Source: Granulimonas faecalis (GTDB lineage Bacteria > Actinomycetota > Coriobacteriia > Coriobacteriales > Atopobiaceae). Taken from it: DNA of 64,000 nt. How positions within the stretch are numbered: position 1 is the first letter of the stretch; every line of letters begins with the position of its first letter. The position numbers were made by a program, and so were the translations under genes. The notes beneath the pieces are model-generated. The model was given only the letters and a program-made list of their open reading frames with translations. It was not told the DNA's origin and did not search any database. The DNA lies in NCBI RefSeq assembly GCF_022834715.1, contig NZ_BQKC01000001.1:718501-782500 (forward strand). The letters are read 5' to 3'. Of this stretch, positions 2,562-9,587 are shown piece after piece.

Positions 2562-2687
2562 GGTGACTCCAATCGAGGGATGGCAGGTGGAAAACTCACC
2601 TAGTCTAGCGTTGTTCCGCTGAGGTGGAAGTCCCTTTGTGCTGGGAAAACATCCATGGTTTCTACCCGGGACCGGTTGTTGCAAATC

Positions 2688-2706
2688 TGTGGCATTCGTG
2701 TGGCAT
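2688..2706 (+). promoter_or_regulatory. Direct repeat TGTGGCAT x2 (candidate response-regulator operator)
   Basis: TGTGGCAT occurs at 2688-2695 and again at 2699-2706, an 11-bp centre-to-centre spacing. That is one helical turn, as expected for dimeric OmpR/PhoB-type winged-helix regulators. It lies about 60 bp upstream of the membrane-protein gene that opens the low-GC island, which itself encodes an OmpR-type regulator. The repeat is seen; its role is inferred. Confidence 0.45.
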
Positions 2707-2766: not shown

Positions 2767-3906
2767 ATGGAAAGGTTTTACATAGTATGGAAAATCGTAG
2801 CCCGTGACAGGAAGCTGCCTCTTGTGACTATGGCTGTGGCTTTGGCCCTCTTGATGCCTGCGATTGCTTCTGTTCCTGTGTTTGGCACTCCGTTTCTGCG
2901 TATGCAGGCAGAGAATCAGCTGAGGCAGGTAGAGGAGGAATGGTCGAATGGTTTCTACGATGGGATGACGCCAGAAGAGGAAGAGCCTTTCAAGGAGTTG
3001 CGGGCTGCCTTGAAGGAGGCGGTTTTCTCCCAAAGCGATGCGGTATTTTACTCATCGATGCAAAGGGCGAATGCCGTTGAGAGGGATCTGGCCGCGCAGG
3101 GAGCTCTTGTTTCAAGCGCAGGGCTGTTGGAGGGCTATCAGCTATTCTATGAGGCAATGGCGCAGGCCGGAGGGCCCCAGTCTTTTGATGTTGCGTCGAA
3201 AATGCCGGCGTTTGAATATGCGTCCTACGTATTCGGGACGACCCCGGCAATTATCCTCTGTATGCCGGTCTTAACGTGTGCGGCCGTTGCGGTTGGATCT
3301 TACAGGCAGGGCATTGTGTCCCTGCAGGCGCCCCGGCCTGTTTTGAATCTCTTTGTTTGCACTTTCGCCCCATGGGCTTTGTCCGTCGTAAGCCTCATTG
3401 TTTCCTTCCTCCCCGCTATGGTATGGATGGCCGCTTGCAATGGGTTGGGCGACCTTTCATATCCCATTGCTTTCATGCAGGGTGACCAGGCCATTTCCAC
3501 GACAGTCGGGGAGTCCCTCTTCGTATCCGCGACCCTTGTACTGCTCGGTTCCCTCTGCCTGTCGGCCCTCATGGCCCTCCTTGGCATGTGGTCGAGTGTT
3601 TTCGTTGGTTGCTTGGTGGCCGGTGCGATTGGGCTGCTCCCTAACATTGGGCTGTACGGGGGTGCAGTGCCTGAGGACATCCTTGCTCTGTGCGTCAGCA
3701 CATATCTTGCTCCCGGGATCTTGTGCGGATATGCGGGGTGCTTTAGCGCTGCCGATTCCGTCTTATCAGAAGCACTGTCTCCTTTTCCTTTGTGTTTTGT
3801 GGCATTTGCGCTGCTGATTGTTGCAGCTTCTCTTGTGGGGGCAGCGGCATGGGCACTACGTCGCGTCTATAGGCTATGGCTGACCGAAAGGTGGACCCAT
3901 GCTTGA
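2767..3906 (+). CDS. ABC-2-like transporter membrane subunit
   Basis: A 379-residue integral membrane protein I cannot assign to a named family. A first membrane segment lies at residues 17-38, followed by a roughly 115-residue extracytoplasmic region rich in Glu/Gln/Ala, then about six membrane segments from residue 155 to near the C-terminus, ending in an Arg/Trp-rich tail. This layout matches ABC-2 permeases of peptide or bacteriocin-immunity exporters. The ATG is preceded by AAAGGAGG at good spacing. The ATPase gene starts 8 nt inside its 3' end, so the two are translationally coupled. Codon usage and GC are visibly lower than in flanking genes, which suggests acquisition by transfer. Confidence 0.75.
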   Translation: MERFYIVWKIVARDRKLPLVTMAVALALLMPAIASVPVFGTPFLRMQAENQLRQVEEEWSNGFYDGMTPEEEEPFKELRAALKEAVFSQSDAVFYSSMQRANAVERDLAAQGALVSSAGLLEGYQLFYEAMAQAGGPQSFDVASKMPAFEYASYVFGTTPAIILCMPVLTCAAVAVGSYRQGIVSLQAPRPVLNLFVCTFAPWALSVVSLIVSFLPAMVWMAACNGLGDLSYPIAFMQGDQAISTTVGESLFVSATLVLLGSLCLSALMALLGMWSSVFVGCLVAGAIGLLPNIGLYGGAVPEDILALCVSTYLAPGILCGYAGCFSAADSVLSEALSPFPLCFVAFALLIVAASLVGAAAWALRRVYRLWLTERWTHA

Positions 3907-4585
3907 GGTTTCTAATCTTGCGGCTGGTTATGGATGGAGCCCTGTTTTCCGCAATATCTCATTTCGCCTGCGTCGAGGTGAGGTGGTTGGCCTTGCCGCG
4001 CCTAATGGAGTGGGAAAGACGACGCTTATGCGTGCCCTTGCAGGGGATGTGCCCGCTGGGAAAGGCTCCGTCGTTGAAGCGGATGGACAAAAGCGGCTCC
4101 CAGGGCGCTCTCGGCGCTGGCCCGTGTACTACTCGGGATGGCAGCAGGTGACTCAGCGGTGCCCGTTGAGCGCCTTTGAGCTTATGGGCCATGCGGCGGG
4201 GTGTTGGGGTTCGGATGCGTGCACTGAAGCGATTGGAGACCGATTGGGCGTCCTCTCGTTTTGGAAGAGGCCGCTTCGCTCCTACTCGCAGGGCATGATT
4301 CAACAAACACTCCTTGCGATGGCATCGGCAACGGAAGCGCCCTACACGCTCCTCGATGAGCCGATGAACGCCTTGGATCCCCTGCGAACGAAGCAGGCTG
4401 AGCTTGAAGTGCGTGCTATGGCACGTGCGGGAAGGACCGTCCTCATTTCCTCCCATTTGCTCGAGGGGCTGCAGCGCATATGCGATCGCGTCCTCTTTCT
4501 CCATTGCGATGCCGTTGAGGAGGTGAAGGGAAATGTGGACTTGAGGGAAGGATTTTTCAGTTGCTATGAGACGAGCAGAGAGTAA
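3899..4585 (+). CDS. ABC transporter ATP-binding protein
   Basis: A compact 228-residue nucleotide-binding subunit. It has Walker A APNGVGKTT (about residue 35), a divergent signature SYSQGMIQQ (about 132), Walker B TLLDEPMNALD (about 152) and an H-loop in ISSHLLEG. It resembles ATPases of ABC-2 exporters for peptides or antibiotics. It overlaps the membrane-subunit gene by 8 nt and is followed 10 nt later by the small secreted-protein gene, so exporter and peptide are probably co-expressed. The transported substrate is unknown; the neighbouring secreted protein could be the cargo or the agent resisted. GC is lower than in the window's housekeeping genes. Confidence 0.88.
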   Translation: MLEVSNLAAGYGWSPVFRNISFRLRRGEVVGLAAPNGVGKTTLMRALAGDVPAGKGSVVEADGQKRLPGRSRRWPVYYSGWQQVTQRCPLSAFELMGHAAGCWGSDACTEAIGDRLGVLSFWKRPLRSYSQGMIQQTLLAMASATEAPYTLLDEPMNALDPLRTKQAELEVRAMARAGRTVLISSHLLEGLQRICDRVLFLHCDAVEEVKGNVDLREGFFSCYETSRE

Positions 4586-4595
4586 GGGGTTGGAC

Positions 4596-4916
4596 ATGCG
4601 GATGAGTAAGAGGGGCATCGGCCTGCTGGTGGCCTTGTTGGCAGTCGCGATCTTGGGTTTGGGCGCCCCGGCCCAGGCCCAGGCGGCCGTGAAGCAGCCC
4701 GATCAGGTGCAGACCTATACTGATGAGGTGATTGACACCTTTAAGGAGTTCACCTGTGGCCTTTTTCGCGTTGATCGGTATGATATTAAATATAAAAGGA
4801 TAACATACCAGCGCACATACTCCTCTAAGGACACGGTGATCGATTATTACAACGGATGGTATAACGGCTATCAGGGTCAGATTTCTCAGCACAAGCTAAT
4901 CTATACGTTGAGGTAG
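4596..4916 (+). CDS. Small secreted protein of unknown family
   Basis: A 106-residue protein. The ATG at 4596 is chosen because AAGGGG lies 6 nt upstream and the ATPase stop is only 10 nt away; an upstream in-frame ATG at 4566 lacks a site. The N-terminus is a clear Sec signal peptide (KRG, a hydrophobic stretch, then APAQAQA) with predicted cleavage near residue 31. The mature part of about 75 residues is rich in Tyr and charged residues, has a single Cys (FTCGLF) and ends in ...KLIYTLR. It lacks the features of lactococcin-972, lanthipeptide or double-glycine bacteriocins. Its place between an ABC exporter and a two-component system suggests a bacteriocin, pheromone or sensed envelope protein, but I do not recognise it. 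Confidence 0.7.
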   Translation: MRMSKRGIGLLVALLAVAILGLGAPAQAQAAVKQPDQVQTYTDEVIDTFKEFTCGLFRVDRYDIKYKRITYQRTYSSKDTVIDYYNGWYNGYQGQISQHKLIYTLR

Positions 4917-4932
4917 TGCTGATCGTTTAGTT

Positions 4933-4958
4933 AGGTAGGGGGCGAACGCCCCCTACCT
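4933..4958 (+). terminator. Hairpin after the secreted-protein gene
   Basis: AGGTAGGGGGC pairs with GCCCCCTACCT across a GAAC tetraloop, 17 nt after the stop codon. The T-run is short (TTG), so termination may be partial, separating an abundant exporter/peptide transcript from lower expression of the two-component genes downstream. Confidence 0.6.
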
Positions 4959-4978
4959 TGTGCGCGAAGGGAAGCGCA

Positions 4979-5680
4979 GTGGCACTGATTTATCTCGCAG
5001 ATGACGAGCGTGAGGTGCGCGAGATTCTCAATCGCTTTCTTGCTGCAGATGGCCACGAGGTTCTTGCTTTCGGTTCCGGCTCCGAGTTTTGGGACGTGTT
5101 CTCCAGAACGCCTTGCGATCTTGCAATACTCGATATAATGATGCCCGGGATAGACGGCATCGAGCTGCTGGCTCGCATCAGAGGCTCGTCTCAGGTGCCT
5201 GTTGTCATGGTCAGCGCCAAAGATTCGGACGAAGACTATTGCCGTGGCCTGGTATTTGGTGCCGACGATTACATTACGAAGCCGTTCAAGCCAACGCTCC
5301 TGGTGGCAAAGGTGCGTTCGATACTCCATCGGATCGATGTGAGGTCACGGGATCTTGGTGGAATGCCTAAAAGGTGGGGCAACCTCGAATACTGCGCTCG
5401 GACGAGAACCTTTTCTGTGGACGGTATGGAGCTTGCCCTGACGGCTCAAGAGCATCAGCTCCTTCTCTTCTACTTCAAAAAATTTAACGTACCGGTCTCT
5501 CGGGACGAGTTGTCCCGAGAGGTCTGGGGCTCTGAGCCTCTTCCTGCAAGTCGTGCCATCGACGAGGCTAATCGCAGGCTCAGGCGCCGTCTCTTAGCGG
5601 CTGGTAGCACCGTGTACAACCAGACGGTGTGGGGACGCGGCTACCGTCTGACCTATCGGGAAGGGGAGGGGCGGCTGTGA
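4979..5680 (+). CDS. OmpR/PhoB-family response regulator
   Basis: A 233-residue regulator. The receiver domain (1-115) has the acidic pair DDE near the start, the phospho-acceptor Asp in LAILDIMMPG (about residue 52) and the Lys of TKPFKP. A winged-helix DNA-binding domain covers about 130-230, ending VWGRGYRLTYR. The GTG at 4979 is preferred: GAAGG is 8 nt upstream, while the alternative TTG at 4958 lies inside the preceding hairpin. The kinase gene starts in a GTGA overlap with its stop, so it pairs with that kinase. It probably controls the exporter/secreted-protein genes upstream, perhaps through the direct repeats at 2688. Confidence 0.92.
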   Translation: MALIYLADDEREVREILNRFLAADGHEVLAFGSGSEFWDVFSRTPCDLAILDIMMPGIDGIELLARIRGSSQVPVVMVSAKDSDEDYCRGLVFGADDYITKPFKPTLLVAKVRSILHRIDVRSRDLGGMPKRWGNLEYCARTRTFSVDGMELALTAQEHQLLLFYFKKFNVPVSRDELSREVWGSEPLPASRAIDEANRRLRRRLLAAGSTVYNQTVWGRGYRLTYREGEGRL

Positions 5681-6879
5681 CCGTGCCGAGCAACCATCCG
5701 GGCCTGCTTAACCGTGCGGGCATGGTGCTGGGGGTCGTTGTGGCGCTCATTCCCTTCCTGTTTGTGGCTGCCCAGTGGTGCATGCTGCAGGACCTTGCTC
5801 GCCGTGCCCTTTCGTCGGGAAACATCGGTTTTTTTCACAATGGACCGGTCGCTCCCGAAGTGTGGCTCATCTCTCTCGACCCGTCTCTTCAGCCGTCATC
5901 GAAGCCCGAGGGGTACGTGGGCGTGCTCTCGGCTGACCTGCTGGAGCATGTTCGAAGTGAGGCACATCGACTTGAGCCAGGCGAGATGTCCTCATATGTC
6001 AGGGGCGACGAATGCTTTTTCTTTACGCCCGAGAAGTCCGCCAATCCCAGTGAGACGGACTATAAGCCTGCTGGTGTTCTTGTGGCAGACGCGAGCGTGG
6101 CATGGGCGCTTGCGAGGTTTTCCGGAGGGGTCATTGCTTTCCTTTGTTTTGGCGTTGACGTCTTGCTCTGGATGGGCGTTCGATATATGAAGTCTCAGTT
6201 GCAAAGAGCTGAGTTGGCAAAGAGGGACTTCTTTGCCAATGCTTCGCATGAACTTAAGACGCCCCTCATGGTTATCGGAGCGCACATCGATGCCGTACGT
6301 GCCCAGCATGAGAGCTTTGACGATGCGGCCGCCGGTATCGACAGGGAACTGTCGCGGTCAGAGCGGCTCGTGGGCGACATCCTCCTCCTCTCCAAGGCGG
6401 ATGCCGGAATGGTTGATGTTTCAATCGCATCTTTCGATGTCCGGGAGACGCTCTTCGACGTAGTGCGCTCATTGGGCCCAGAGGCTCGTTCTCGCGGAAT
6501 CGAGCTTTCCCCTGTGAATCCCACGCCTCTTGTCCTGGGTTCTGACGAGGATAAAGTTGCGACCATTCTGTTTAACGCAGCTGTAAACGCGCTCCGTCAT
6601 GCGGCGAGCGTGGTGAGGGTAGGAATGACGGTCCAAGAGGAACAGATCGAGCTTTTCGTTGAGAACGACGGGGCAGCTCTCGGGAACCAAGAGAGGGAGC
6701 ATCTGTTTGATCGTTTTTACAGTTGCGATGCGGGAGGTACCGGCATTGGTATGGCGCTTGCAGCTGACTATGCCGAACGGTTGGGCGCGAAGCTGACCGC
6801 TGACTCAAGCAAAGGTGGGACTCGTGTGAGCCTTTGGTTACCAAGAACATGGGCCTCAGAGCACCTCCGCGCGCCCTGA
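5677..6879 (+). CDS. Sensor histidine kinase
   Basis: A 400-residue membrane kinase. There is one membrane segment at about 15-35, an extracytoplasmic sensor region of about 100 residues, a second membrane segment at about 150-170, and then the dimerisation H-box FANASHELKTPL with phospho-acceptor His near residue 192. The ATPase domain has an N-box (LFNAAVNALRHAA), the FDRFY motif and a short G-box (GGTGIGMALA). The GTG start overlaps the regulator's TGA by 3 nt, with GGAGGGG upstream. The sensed signal is unknown; co-location with an exporter and a secreted protein suggests a peptide or envelope stress. The 3' end overlaps a hairpin facing rlmKL. Confidence 0.92.
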   Translation: MTVPSNHPGLLNRAGMVLGVVVALIPFLFVAAQWCMLQDLARRALSSGNIGFFHNGPVAPEVWLISLDPSLQPSSKPEGYVGVLSADLLEHVRSEAHRLEPGEMSSYVRGDECFFFTPEKSANPSETDYKPAGVLVADASVAWALARFSGGVIAFLCFGVDVLLWMGVRYMKSQLQRAELAKRDFFANASHELKTPLMVIGAHIDAVRAQHESFDDAAAGIDRELSRSERLVGDILLLSKADAGMVDVSIASFDVRETLFDVVRSLGPEARSRGIELSPVNPTPLVLGSDEDKVATILFNAAVNALRHAASVVRVGMTVQEEQIELFVENDGAALGNQEREHLFDRFYSCDAGGTGIGMALAADYAERLGAKLTADSSKGGTRVSLWLPRTWASEHLRAP

Positions 6880-6890: not shown

Positions 6891-9587
6891 TCAGTGGCGG
6901 TTGCCGCCCTCGCGGCCCTGGCCGCGGCGGTTGTTGCCCGAGGGGCCTGCGCCGCGCGGGCCGCGGCGGTCGCCGCCCTTGAACCCGCCGCGGTCCGATC
7001 CGGGCCTGCCGCCCTTGAACCCGCCGCGGCGGTCGTCCTTGCCGCCATGGCCGCCGCCCCGCCGGTCGTTGTCGCGCCCGTCGCGCCCGCGGAAGCCGCC
7101 GGGCCTGCGGTCCGTGCGGCCGTCTGAGCCGTGACGGCCGTCCCGCCGGTTGCCGCGCCCGTGACCGTCCCTGCCGCCGCCAAAGCCGCCGGGCCTGCGG
7201 TCGCCGCGGTACCGGCTGTCGGGGGCCCGCTTGCCGGCGTGGTCGCCGCGGGCCTTGCGGGCCTCGATCTCGGCACGCTTCTCCTCGCTCATGGGCTTGC
7301 GGCGCACGATGTAGACATGGTGCACCTTGGAGTTGCGCTCGAAGTCGTGGGGGATGGTGCGCTCGGTGACATCCTCGACGGTCACGCCGCAGCGGTCGAG
7401 CTTCTCGACGTCGGGCGTGAAGTCGCGCAGGTTGCAGCTGAACAGGCACACGCCGTCGCGGGTGAGCAGGCGGGAGATGCCGATGAGCAGCTCGGAGTGG
7501 TCGCGCTGGACGTCGAAGCTGCGCTCGCCCATGGAGCTGGAGTTGGAGAAGGTGGGCGGGTCGCAGAAGACGAGGTCCCAGCGGTTGCGGGTCTTGCGCT
7601 GCTCGTCCACCCAGCGCAGGACGTCGGCCTTCACGTACTCGTGCTCCTCGCCGTCGAAGCCGTTGCGCTGCATGTTGCGGCGGGCCCAGTCGATGTAGGT
7701 GTAGGAGAGGTCCACCGTGGTGGTGTAGCCCGCGCCGCCGTCGGCTGCGTAGACGGTGCCGGTGCCGGTGTAGGCGAACAGGTTGAGGAAGCGCTTGGAC
7801 CCCCTCATCTGCTTGGCCATCTCGCGGATCTCTGCGCGCACGTCGCGATGGTCGAGGAACAGGCCGCAGTCCAGGCGGTCGACGAGGTTGATCTCGAAGG
7901 TGAGGCCGCCCTCCTCCACGAGCTTGCAGCCCTCGGGCAGCTCCACGCCGTCCACGTAGCGGGCCTTGGGCTTGCGGGCCGGGCGGCCGGGGACGTTGCG
8001 GGCGAGCTCGCGGGCCTTGATGGTGCGGGTGATGTCCTCGGGTGCCGCGTACTGCGAGCCGCCCTTGGCCTTGTGGCGCACGCGCAGGGCCACGTCGCGG
8101 CCGCGCACGCCGAGCACCCGGGGCGCCACGGTGAGCACGTCGATGAGGCGGCGGCGGGCCTTCTCGGGGTCGATCTCGGACGGCGCGGCGTACTCGGAGA
8201 CCACGAGCCAACGGCCCGGCGTCTGGGGCGCGCCGCGGAAGAGGTCGATGGCCACGTTGTAGTCGGGGAGGTCCTGGTCGTAGACGCGGTAGCAGGTGAC
8301 GTCCTCGGCCTCGGCCCACTTGGAGCGCTCCTTGGCGTCCTTCTCCAGGCGGGCGGCGAACTGGTCGGTCACCGGCACGAGCACCGGCACCTCGGAGCCA
8401 TCCTTAAGGGTGACCGCCGCCGGGGGATCCATGGCGATGTCGGCGTAGCCGCGCAGGTAGACGTTGTTCTTGCCCATGAGCGACTCCACCTCGTCCTCGG
8501 GCTCGATGCCGAGGAGGGCGTCCAGAGCGCCGTCGCGGGCCAGGGTGCAGGCGGGCGTGCCCTCGGGCAGGCCGGAGCAGAGCCCGGTGAGGTAGGAGAG
8601 GGCTTCGGCCTCGCGGGCGGCCTCGTCGGCGTGCAGCCAGGCGAGGTCCACGGCCACGAGACGGTCTTCGGTGAGCTCGGCCCCGGCGCGGGAGACCTCG
8701 CGGGCGGGCACGACCACCGGCTCGCGGTCGATGCCGGCGGAGTTGAGCAGGGCGCGGCAGTCGGCGCCGAAGCCCTCGCGGGTGTCGCTCACCACGAGCA
8801 CGAGGGGGTTCTTGGCGCCTGCGGCGGCGCGGCGCTCGGCCTCGTTGCGCACCTGCGACCAGCTGCGCTCCGAGTGGCCGAGCCACCGGGAGAAGCCCCA
8901 GCGCACGCGGAGGAGCCCCGGGGCGCGGTCGAGGGCCACCGATGCGGCCTCGACGGCCAGGGTACCGCCGCCGGAGAAGGCCACGCAGACGGAGGGCATG
9001 GGGCGGCGCACGGTGCGCCACCAGCCGGCGAGCTCGAGCACGGCCGCGGCGTAGTCGGGGCGCTGGGGCGGGATGGCGGCGCGGCGGGCGGCCTTCTCGT
9101 AGCCGCGGCGGAACAGGGGCTCGCCGCTCATGTCGATCCCCATGGTGGCGTGGCCCTCGCGGATGCGCACGCGGATGCGGAGGTCGGGGTCGTCGGTGTC
9201 GACGTTGGGACGGGTGCCCTTGGCCGCGAGCATGCGGTCGACGACGGCGTCCTTGACCTTCTGGCTGGTGAAGAGGGTGTTGTCGAGGCCCTCCATGGTG
9301 CCGGAGGTGTACACGGCGAACGTGGCGCCCACGGGGAGGTGGTCCTCCCACGGGATGGCGGCGGCGAGGTCGTAGAGGGTCTCGGCACCGGTCACGGGGC
9401 CGGACTCCACGACGGCGACGACGGAGCTGGCGATGCGGCTCCATAGGCAGGCGACGTATGCCCACTTGAGGGGACCCTCGAAGCCCACCTGACCCTGGAG
9501 CGGGCGCACGGAGGGCACGCCCAGGCTCTCGAGCTCTTGGGCGAGGAGGTGTTCCAGACCGGTGGGGCAGGTCGCGTAGAATCTCAT
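6891..9587 (-). CDS. rlmKL: Bifunctional 23S rRNA guanine methyltransferase RlmKL with RGG-like tail
   Basis: An 898-residue protein. The N-terminus (MRFYATCPTGLEHLLAQEL) plus THUMP region binds rRNA. A RlmL-like methyltransferase domain (m2G2445 in E. coli) covers about 160-380, and a RlmK-like domain (m7G2069) about 480-740 with LNLFAYTGTGTVYAA and the catalytic CDPPTFSNSSSM. The ATG at 9587 has GAGAGG 6 nt upstream. Two features are odd. The RlmL half keeps a glycine-rich loop (FSGGGTLAVEAA), but I cannot find its NPPY motif. The last 130 or so residues are an Arg/Gly/Asp-rich tail with many RGG/GGF steps, absent from E. coli RlmL. The RlmK activity is the safer assignment. Confidence 0.9.
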   Translation of the reverse strand: MRFYATCPTGLEHLLAQELESLGVPSVRPLQGQVGFEGPLKWAYVACLWSRIASSVVAVVESGPVTGAETLYDLAAAIPWEDHLPVGATFAVYTSGTMEGLDNTLFTSQKVKDAVVDRMLAAKGTRPNVDTDDPDLRIRVRIREGHATMGIDMSGEPLFRRGYEKAARRAAIPPQRPDYAAAVLELAGWWRTVRRPMPSVCVAFSGGGTLAVEAASVALDRAPGLLRVRWGFSRWLGHSERSWSQVRNEAERRAAAGAKNPLVLVVSDTREGFGADCRALLNSAGIDREPVVVPAREVSRAGAELTEDRLVAVDLAWLHADEAAREAEALSYLTGLCSGLPEGTPACTLARDGALDALLGIEPEDEVESLMGKNNVYLRGYADIAMDPPAAVTLKDGSEVPVLVPVTDQFAARLEKDAKERSKWAEAEDVTCYRVYDQDLPDYNVAIDLFRGAPQTPGRWLVVSEYAAPSEIDPEKARRRLIDVLTVAPRVLGVRGRDVALRVRHKAKGGSQYAAPEDITRTIKARELARNVPGRPARKPKARYVDGVELPEGCKLVEEGGLTFEINLVDRLDCGLFLDHRDVRAEIREMAKQMRGSKRFLNLFAYTGTGTVYAADGGAGYTTTVDLSYTYIDWARRNMQRNGFDGEEHEYVKADVLRWVDEQRKTRNRWDLVFCDPPTFSNSSSMGERSFDVQRDHSELLIGISRLLTRDGVCLFSCNLRDFTPDVEKLDRCGVTVEDVTERTIPHDFERNSKVHHVYIVRRKPMSEEKRAEIEARKARGDHAGKRAPDSRYRGDRRPGGFGGGRDGHGRGNRRDGRHGSDGRTDRRPGGFRGRDGRDNDRRGGGHGGKDDRRGGFKGGRPGSDRGGFKGGDRRGPRGAGPSGNNRRGQGREGGNRH

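Follow-up and report, generated by a model that had tools for sequence, protein, structure and literature searches.

The question raised by this 64,000-nucleotide stretch of the Granulimonas faecalis genome (the window) is what a small secreted protein, encoded between the genes of a transporter and those of a two-component system, does for its producer. A sequence-only reading had called the gene at 4596 to 4916 an orphan within an exporter operon and had offered three guesses: a new bacteriocin, a pheromone read by the adjacent kinase, or a small immunity protein. The gene is the third in a tight five-gene operon spanning 2767 to 6879 (permease-ATPase-peptide-response regulator-kinase), with the following features:

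2677 to 2706, plus strand: direct repeat of three tandem 11-bp units, the proposed binding site of an OmpR-type regulator
2767 to 3906, plus strand: permease of 379 residues, ABC-2 type, the first transmembrane helix being followed by a helical extracytoplasmic insert
3899 to 4585, plus strand: ABC ATPase of 228 residues, overlapping the permease gene by 8 nt (PF00005, E = 1.3e-17)
4596 to 4916, plus strand: secreted peptide gene, 106 residues (Sec signal 4596 to 4685, mature part 4686 to 4913; four-stranded all-beta model)
4933 to 4958, plus strand: perfect 11-bp hairpin between the peptide and regulator genes (z = -5.0)
4979 to 5680, plus strand: OmpR-family response regulator of 233 residues (PF00072 and PF00486)
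5677 to 6879, plus strand: histidine kinase of 400 residues from a GTG at 5677, with an outside domain near the N-terminus (PF00512 and PF02518)

The 106-residue product begins with MRMSKRGIGLLVALLAVAILGLGAPAQAQA, followed after the cleavage point by AVKQPDQ. Read by eye, it has a Sec signal, recognizable by its basic n-region and hydrophobic core and by AQA/AQAQA cleavage sites, and a signal peptide with a signal peptidase site was read in the same way in its relatives; no lipobox is present in the window product. The mature part of ~76 residues, with 1 Cys and 10 Tyr, agrees with the earlier description of a secreted protein of about 75 residues with one Cys and many Tyr. The ribosome site of its own that had been assigned to the gene is also there, with AAGGGG 6 nt 5′ of the ATG and a 10-nt gap between the ATPase stop (ending at 4585) and the start codon at 4596.

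The description as an orphan did not hold, because the peptide has further copies in its own genome and relatives elsewhere in the order. Homologues found by profile align with the window peptide over its full length, with E values down to 1e-37. A second five-gene operon of identical gene order lies at C1:50.6-54.8 kb of the same 2.23-Mb genome (L004), and its proteins are only ~27 to 43% identical to those of the window operon (43% for the regulator and 29% for the kinase). Upstream of this second operon, a ~170-nt dispersed repeat (L004 615-940 and 2124-2296) flanks a 346-residue ORF, and a 25-nt inverted repeat lies at L004 2121-2299. At a third place in the genome, C1:1309454-1310247, two relatives form a tandem pair, the second of which (L005 5449-5868, minus strand) is broken by an in-frame TGA.

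Profile searches recovered relatives in ~25 of 395 Coriobacteriales genomes; 26 had matched, one of them (G114) over the signal peptide only, and the short matches confined to the signal peptide in G013, G114, and G137 were discarded. In a sample of 396 genomes from the phylum, no relative was found outside Coriobacteriales, all five matching genomes belonging to the order, and a scan of genome contigs with the single peptide as query gave no match. Copies in Collinsella aerofaciens lie on plasmids of 27 and 30 kb and are annotated only as hypothetical proteins. Members share, with variations, V-x-D-T-[YF], then Y-x-x-T-Y-[KR]-x-[LI]-x-[YF]-x-x-x-[YF], then a G, and a C-terminal Y-x-[TV]-[WY].

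No family match was found in Pfam, NCBIfam (both scanned with up to 25 members), or PHROG, and a PDB sequence search gave no match for the peptide. Weak matches to DUF3217, DUF5626, and phrog_8367 involved one member each and were taken as chance; for DUF5626 (PF18540), the window peptide scored 14.1 bits against a gathering threshold of 26.7, and no other member matched. A phage origin was set aside, since neither a credible phage record nor an IMG/VR match was found. The window peptide belongs to a real family of secreted proteins that is new and unannotated and has a conserved transporter.

Relatives of the permease and ATPase directly adjoin the peptide gene in all 16 distinct loci with a single peptide (the window, L004, L011, L012, L013, L015, L060, L061 on a plasmid, L062, L064, L065, two in L066, L067, L070, and L071), bearing out the expectation that the gene is conserved beside exporter genes. 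These loci span nine genera in three families of Coriobacteriales, and among them the gene order varies, several encoding permease and ATPase as one fused protein. At five other loci (L005, L028, L029, L061 at 16.8 to 17.7 kb, and L063), two different peptides, A with a His-containing loop and B with a longer loop, form tandem pairs without an adjacent transporter. In one of these, L028 of genome G022, the pair is followed by a regulator and a kinase. That kinase gene (L028 4047-5222, minus strand) has a HisKA match, no HATPase_c match, and no N-box, and its product may be degenerate or unusual. On a C. aerofaciens plasmid (NZ_OY725718.1; L075 21829-25329), a tandem peptide pair precedes three calcineurin-like phosphoesterase genes, which may act as its partners or provide its immunity.

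The operon also has the marks of an accessory trait. Its GC content is 56% (51% for the peptide gene), compared to 67% and 73% for the flanking kup and rlmL genes, and kup and rlmL are adjacent without an insert in five genomes of other genera (G012, G069, G007, G014, and G004). Together with the plasmid copies and patchy occurrence of the family, this GC-poor insert indicates that the operon is accessory.

Within that accessory distribution, the peptide gene is usually the part that is lost. Nine Collinsella strains carry the same double permease and ATPase beside the first peptide gene, which is intact in three (L066, L109, and L115), stopped by a TAG within its signal peptide in one (L072), and cleanly deleted in five. 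Four of these have one deletion of ~420 bp in common, and the fifth (L108) has different breakpoints; the Collinsella losses may amount to only three independent events. The transporter frames are open in eight of the nine strains. The exception, L066 (G184), has an intact peptide and a frame-shifted permease N-terminus, so loss is not strictly one-way. Elsewhere, a TGA interrupts the peptide of L065 (G196), whose adjoining transporter is fused, intact, and ~650 residues long; in L093 a stop falls within the mature peptide; and the second peptide of the pair is broken in both L005 and L063. In one ortholog pair with few changes, dN/dS was 0.55 for the mature peptide and 0.30 for the transporter; as both values are below 1, no positive selection is shown. 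The same loss of a peptide beside a retained transporter has been described for the lactococcin 972-like locus of streptococcin B: strains with scbABC produce the peptide, and others have retained scbBC alone (PMC11796350).

Structural models were obtained for both the peptide and the permease. AlphaFold2, given a 25-sequence alignment, modeled the mature peptide at pLDDT 94 and pTM 0.75 as four long antiparallel strands (mature residues 11 to 23, 28 to 41, 45 to 59, and 62 to 75), and this confidence, with the full-length homologues and the conserved gene order, places the reading frame far above a chance ORF. Foldseek and VIA-align returned no credible solved or viral relative of the peptide (best E of ~0.6 to 1; Z ≤ 3.5), and weak fold-search hits to pore-forming toxins (E of ~3) were set aside. 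The peptide model is all-beta; the lactococcin 972 beta-sandwich (2LGN) and 9HKJ did not appear among the Foldseek or VIA results, an absence that is no proof. By these searches, the modeled fold appears to have no counterpart among solved structures, which does not by itself prove a new fold.

The permease has no Pfam family match. Its model (pLDDT 83, pTM 0.81) resembles NosY (Z = 16.2, root mean square deviation of 3.4 over 226 residues) and PmtD (Z = 13.6), which identifies it as an ABC-2 (type V) exporter in which the first transmembrane helix is followed by an additional helical domain on the outside; the features of such exporters, the permease fold and a separate ABC ATPase (PF00005), are both found here. 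The name exporter operon is probably a misnomer, since the peptide has its own Sec signal and does not need the transporter for export, and protection is the more likely function. LanFEG transporters have a protective role, and PmtABCD both exports phenol-soluble modulins, which are leaderless amphipathic helices, and protects against them; by analogy with these, the transporter in the window would be protective.

Comparison with known systems showed partial likenesses in each case. The lactococcin 972 systems (PF09683; pBL1, scbABC) also have a Sec-secreted, unmodified peptide with a precursor of ~100 residues beside a membrane protein and an ATPase, are plasmid-borne in places, and lose the peptide while keeping the transporter. 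They differ in their DUF1430-type membrane protein of ~650 to 720 residues, compared to an ABC-2 permease of ~380 residues here, and in that the window operon includes two-component genes and its peptide and permease have no sequence or profile similarity to theirs. No PF09683 match was found among up to 25 members scanned against Pfam and NCBIfam, nor anywhere in the G. faecalis genome, and hhalign gave the peptide a probability of 0.1%. A DUF1430-type membrane protein was rejected on the same grounds (hhalign probability of 0.1% for the permease profile against four such proteins), the permease having a NosY-like fold instead.

PmtABCD and PmtCD share the permease fold and the pairing of an ABC-2 transporter with small secreted peptides, but the phenol-soluble modulins are leaderless and helical, whereas the window peptide starts with a Sec signal and is modeled as all-beta. 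Lantibiotic operons likewise place a transporter of the same general type (LanFEG) next to a regulator/kinase pair (LanRK) and a peptide; they differ in that the window peptide has a Sec signal and its operon includes no modification enzymes or C39-peptidase exporter. Lanthipeptide, sactipeptide, and double-glycine-leader assignments were rejected, as ABC, regulator, and kinase domains are the only ones in the proteins of the operon, and the Pfam/NCBIfam scans and hhalign together bear out the earlier statement that signatures of these classes and of lactococcin 972 are absent. The YxdJKLM-YxeA and other Bce-type clusters also combine a regulator, a kinase, an ABC transporter, and a small secreted protein, but the permease here is NosY-like in fold and the peptide is not of the YxeA family. 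On a Macrococcus plasmid, the DUF1430 and ATPase genes of a lactococcin 972-type operon flank a gene of the YxeA family (L105 2293-2607).

The DNA upstream of the window operon offers a candidate control site. Three units with an 11-bp period, TGTTGCAAATC TGTGGCATTCG TGTGGCAT, lie at 2677 to 2706, and the repeat pattern matches twice in the window, compared to 0.07 expected. Only two exact copies of the pattern TGTGGCATNNNTGWGGCA exist in the 2.23-Mb genome, each 79 to 95 nt before the first gene of a five-gene operon, and all its other occurrences have two mismatches. A related pattern, GTGGCATTTCTGAAGC, occurs once in the G022 genome, upstream of the L028 pair, regulator, and kinase. Since these patterns were derived from the sites themselves, the counts test uniqueness and position rather than discovery. 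The 11-bp repeat was not seen upstream of 12 examined loci without two-component genes, and the three regulators (of the window, L004, and L028 operons) have RAxDExxRRLR in common in the recognition region. We propose that the repeats at 2677 to 2706 are a candidate binding site of the operon's OmpR-type regulator. The hairpin that follows the peptide gene recurs at the same place in L004 (weaker, z = -2.1 compared to shuffles), L012, L013, and L066, and it could allow the peptide to be expressed more strongly than the regulator genes.

Taken together, the transporter linkage, peptide loss, accessory distribution, confident fold, likeness to NosY and PmtD, and upstream repeats support, at somewhat better than even confidence, the reading that the window gene belongs to a new family of Sec-dependent, probably unmodified bacteriocins, which would have an ABC transporter for immunity and, here, a two-component system of their own; antibacterial activity is inferred from these features. 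Signal peptidase would free a folded beta-sheet protein of ~76 residues, which would act on the envelope of related Coriobacteriales, while the ABC-2 transporter would clear it from the membrane or target of the producer and so confer immunity. The kinase and OmpR-type regulator might respond to the peptide itself, or to envelope stress arising from it, by increasing transcription via the direct repeats, with the hairpin 3′ of the peptide gene holding expression of the peptide above that of the regulator genes. The five pair loci without an adjacent transporter count against this reading, since immunity there is unexplained; a shared downstream immunity gene was sought for the L029 and L005 pairs and was not found. 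More tentatively, and with the odds against it, the family may be a new class of folded, all-beta secreted antibacterial proteins in gut Coriobacteriales with a fold not in the PDB, acting singly with ABC-2 immunity or as two-peptide pairs, and in some cases switched by a two-component system via the 11-bp repeat.

Three other readings were weighed. The transporter, together with the two-component system, might resist foreign peptides, with the secreted protein as an accessory (for example, a decoy or delivery factor, as in YxeA-YxdJKLM). The gene content does resemble yxdJKLM-yxeA, and one lactococcin 972-type operon likewise contains a YxeA gene; however, Pfam scans of all 25 members gave no match to the YxeA family (PF06486), tandem peptide pairs occur without a transporter, and it would be the accessory that is lost while the device stays, so we consider this unlikely. 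The pheromone guess becomes an autoinducer that is secreted, read by the neighboring kinase, and switches the operon on via the direct repeats, with killing secondary if it occurs at all. Peptides are joined to a regulator and kinase in the two five-gene operons here and in one G022 locus, that locus (L028) has no transporter, and the direct repeats stand upstream of two-component operons only. The kinase is missing from most loci, though, a folded beta protein of 76 residues would be a large pheromone, and the transporter is retained where the peptide is lost, all of which make this reading quite improbable.

The last reading, a small secreted protein giving immunity to a bacteriocin from another locus, would fit the size of the product and the operon shared with a transporter. 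Yet the product is released by Sec with no lipobox or membrane anchor, the operon has no other candidate toxin gene, and it is the peptide gene that varies, being present in places as divergent tandem pairs. Since losses mostly affect the peptide gene and pairs exist without a transporter, we regard this reading as very improbable. The retention of the transporter where the peptide is lost is our main reason for preferring a bacteriocin with its immunity over either an accessory or an immunity protein. Of the three original guesses, the bacteriocin is therefore now the best supported, a pheromone role is possible on its own or in addition, and the immunity protein has lost ground.

No description of such bacteriocins in Coriobacteriia (Collinsella and Olsenella among them) was found in the open-access literature, subscription papers lying mostly outside the search. 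The family and its candidate self-protection genes, which lie in some cases on plasmids of C. aerofaciens, a human gut species, could explain competition among Coriobacteriia strains, and naturally occurring strains that have the same transporter but differ in the presence of the peptide provide a directly testable system. Next to the operon, on the minus strand, the 906-residue RlmL-type rRNA methyltransferase homologue has a Gly/Arg-rich tail of ~130 residues, encoded at 6891 to 7290 of the window.
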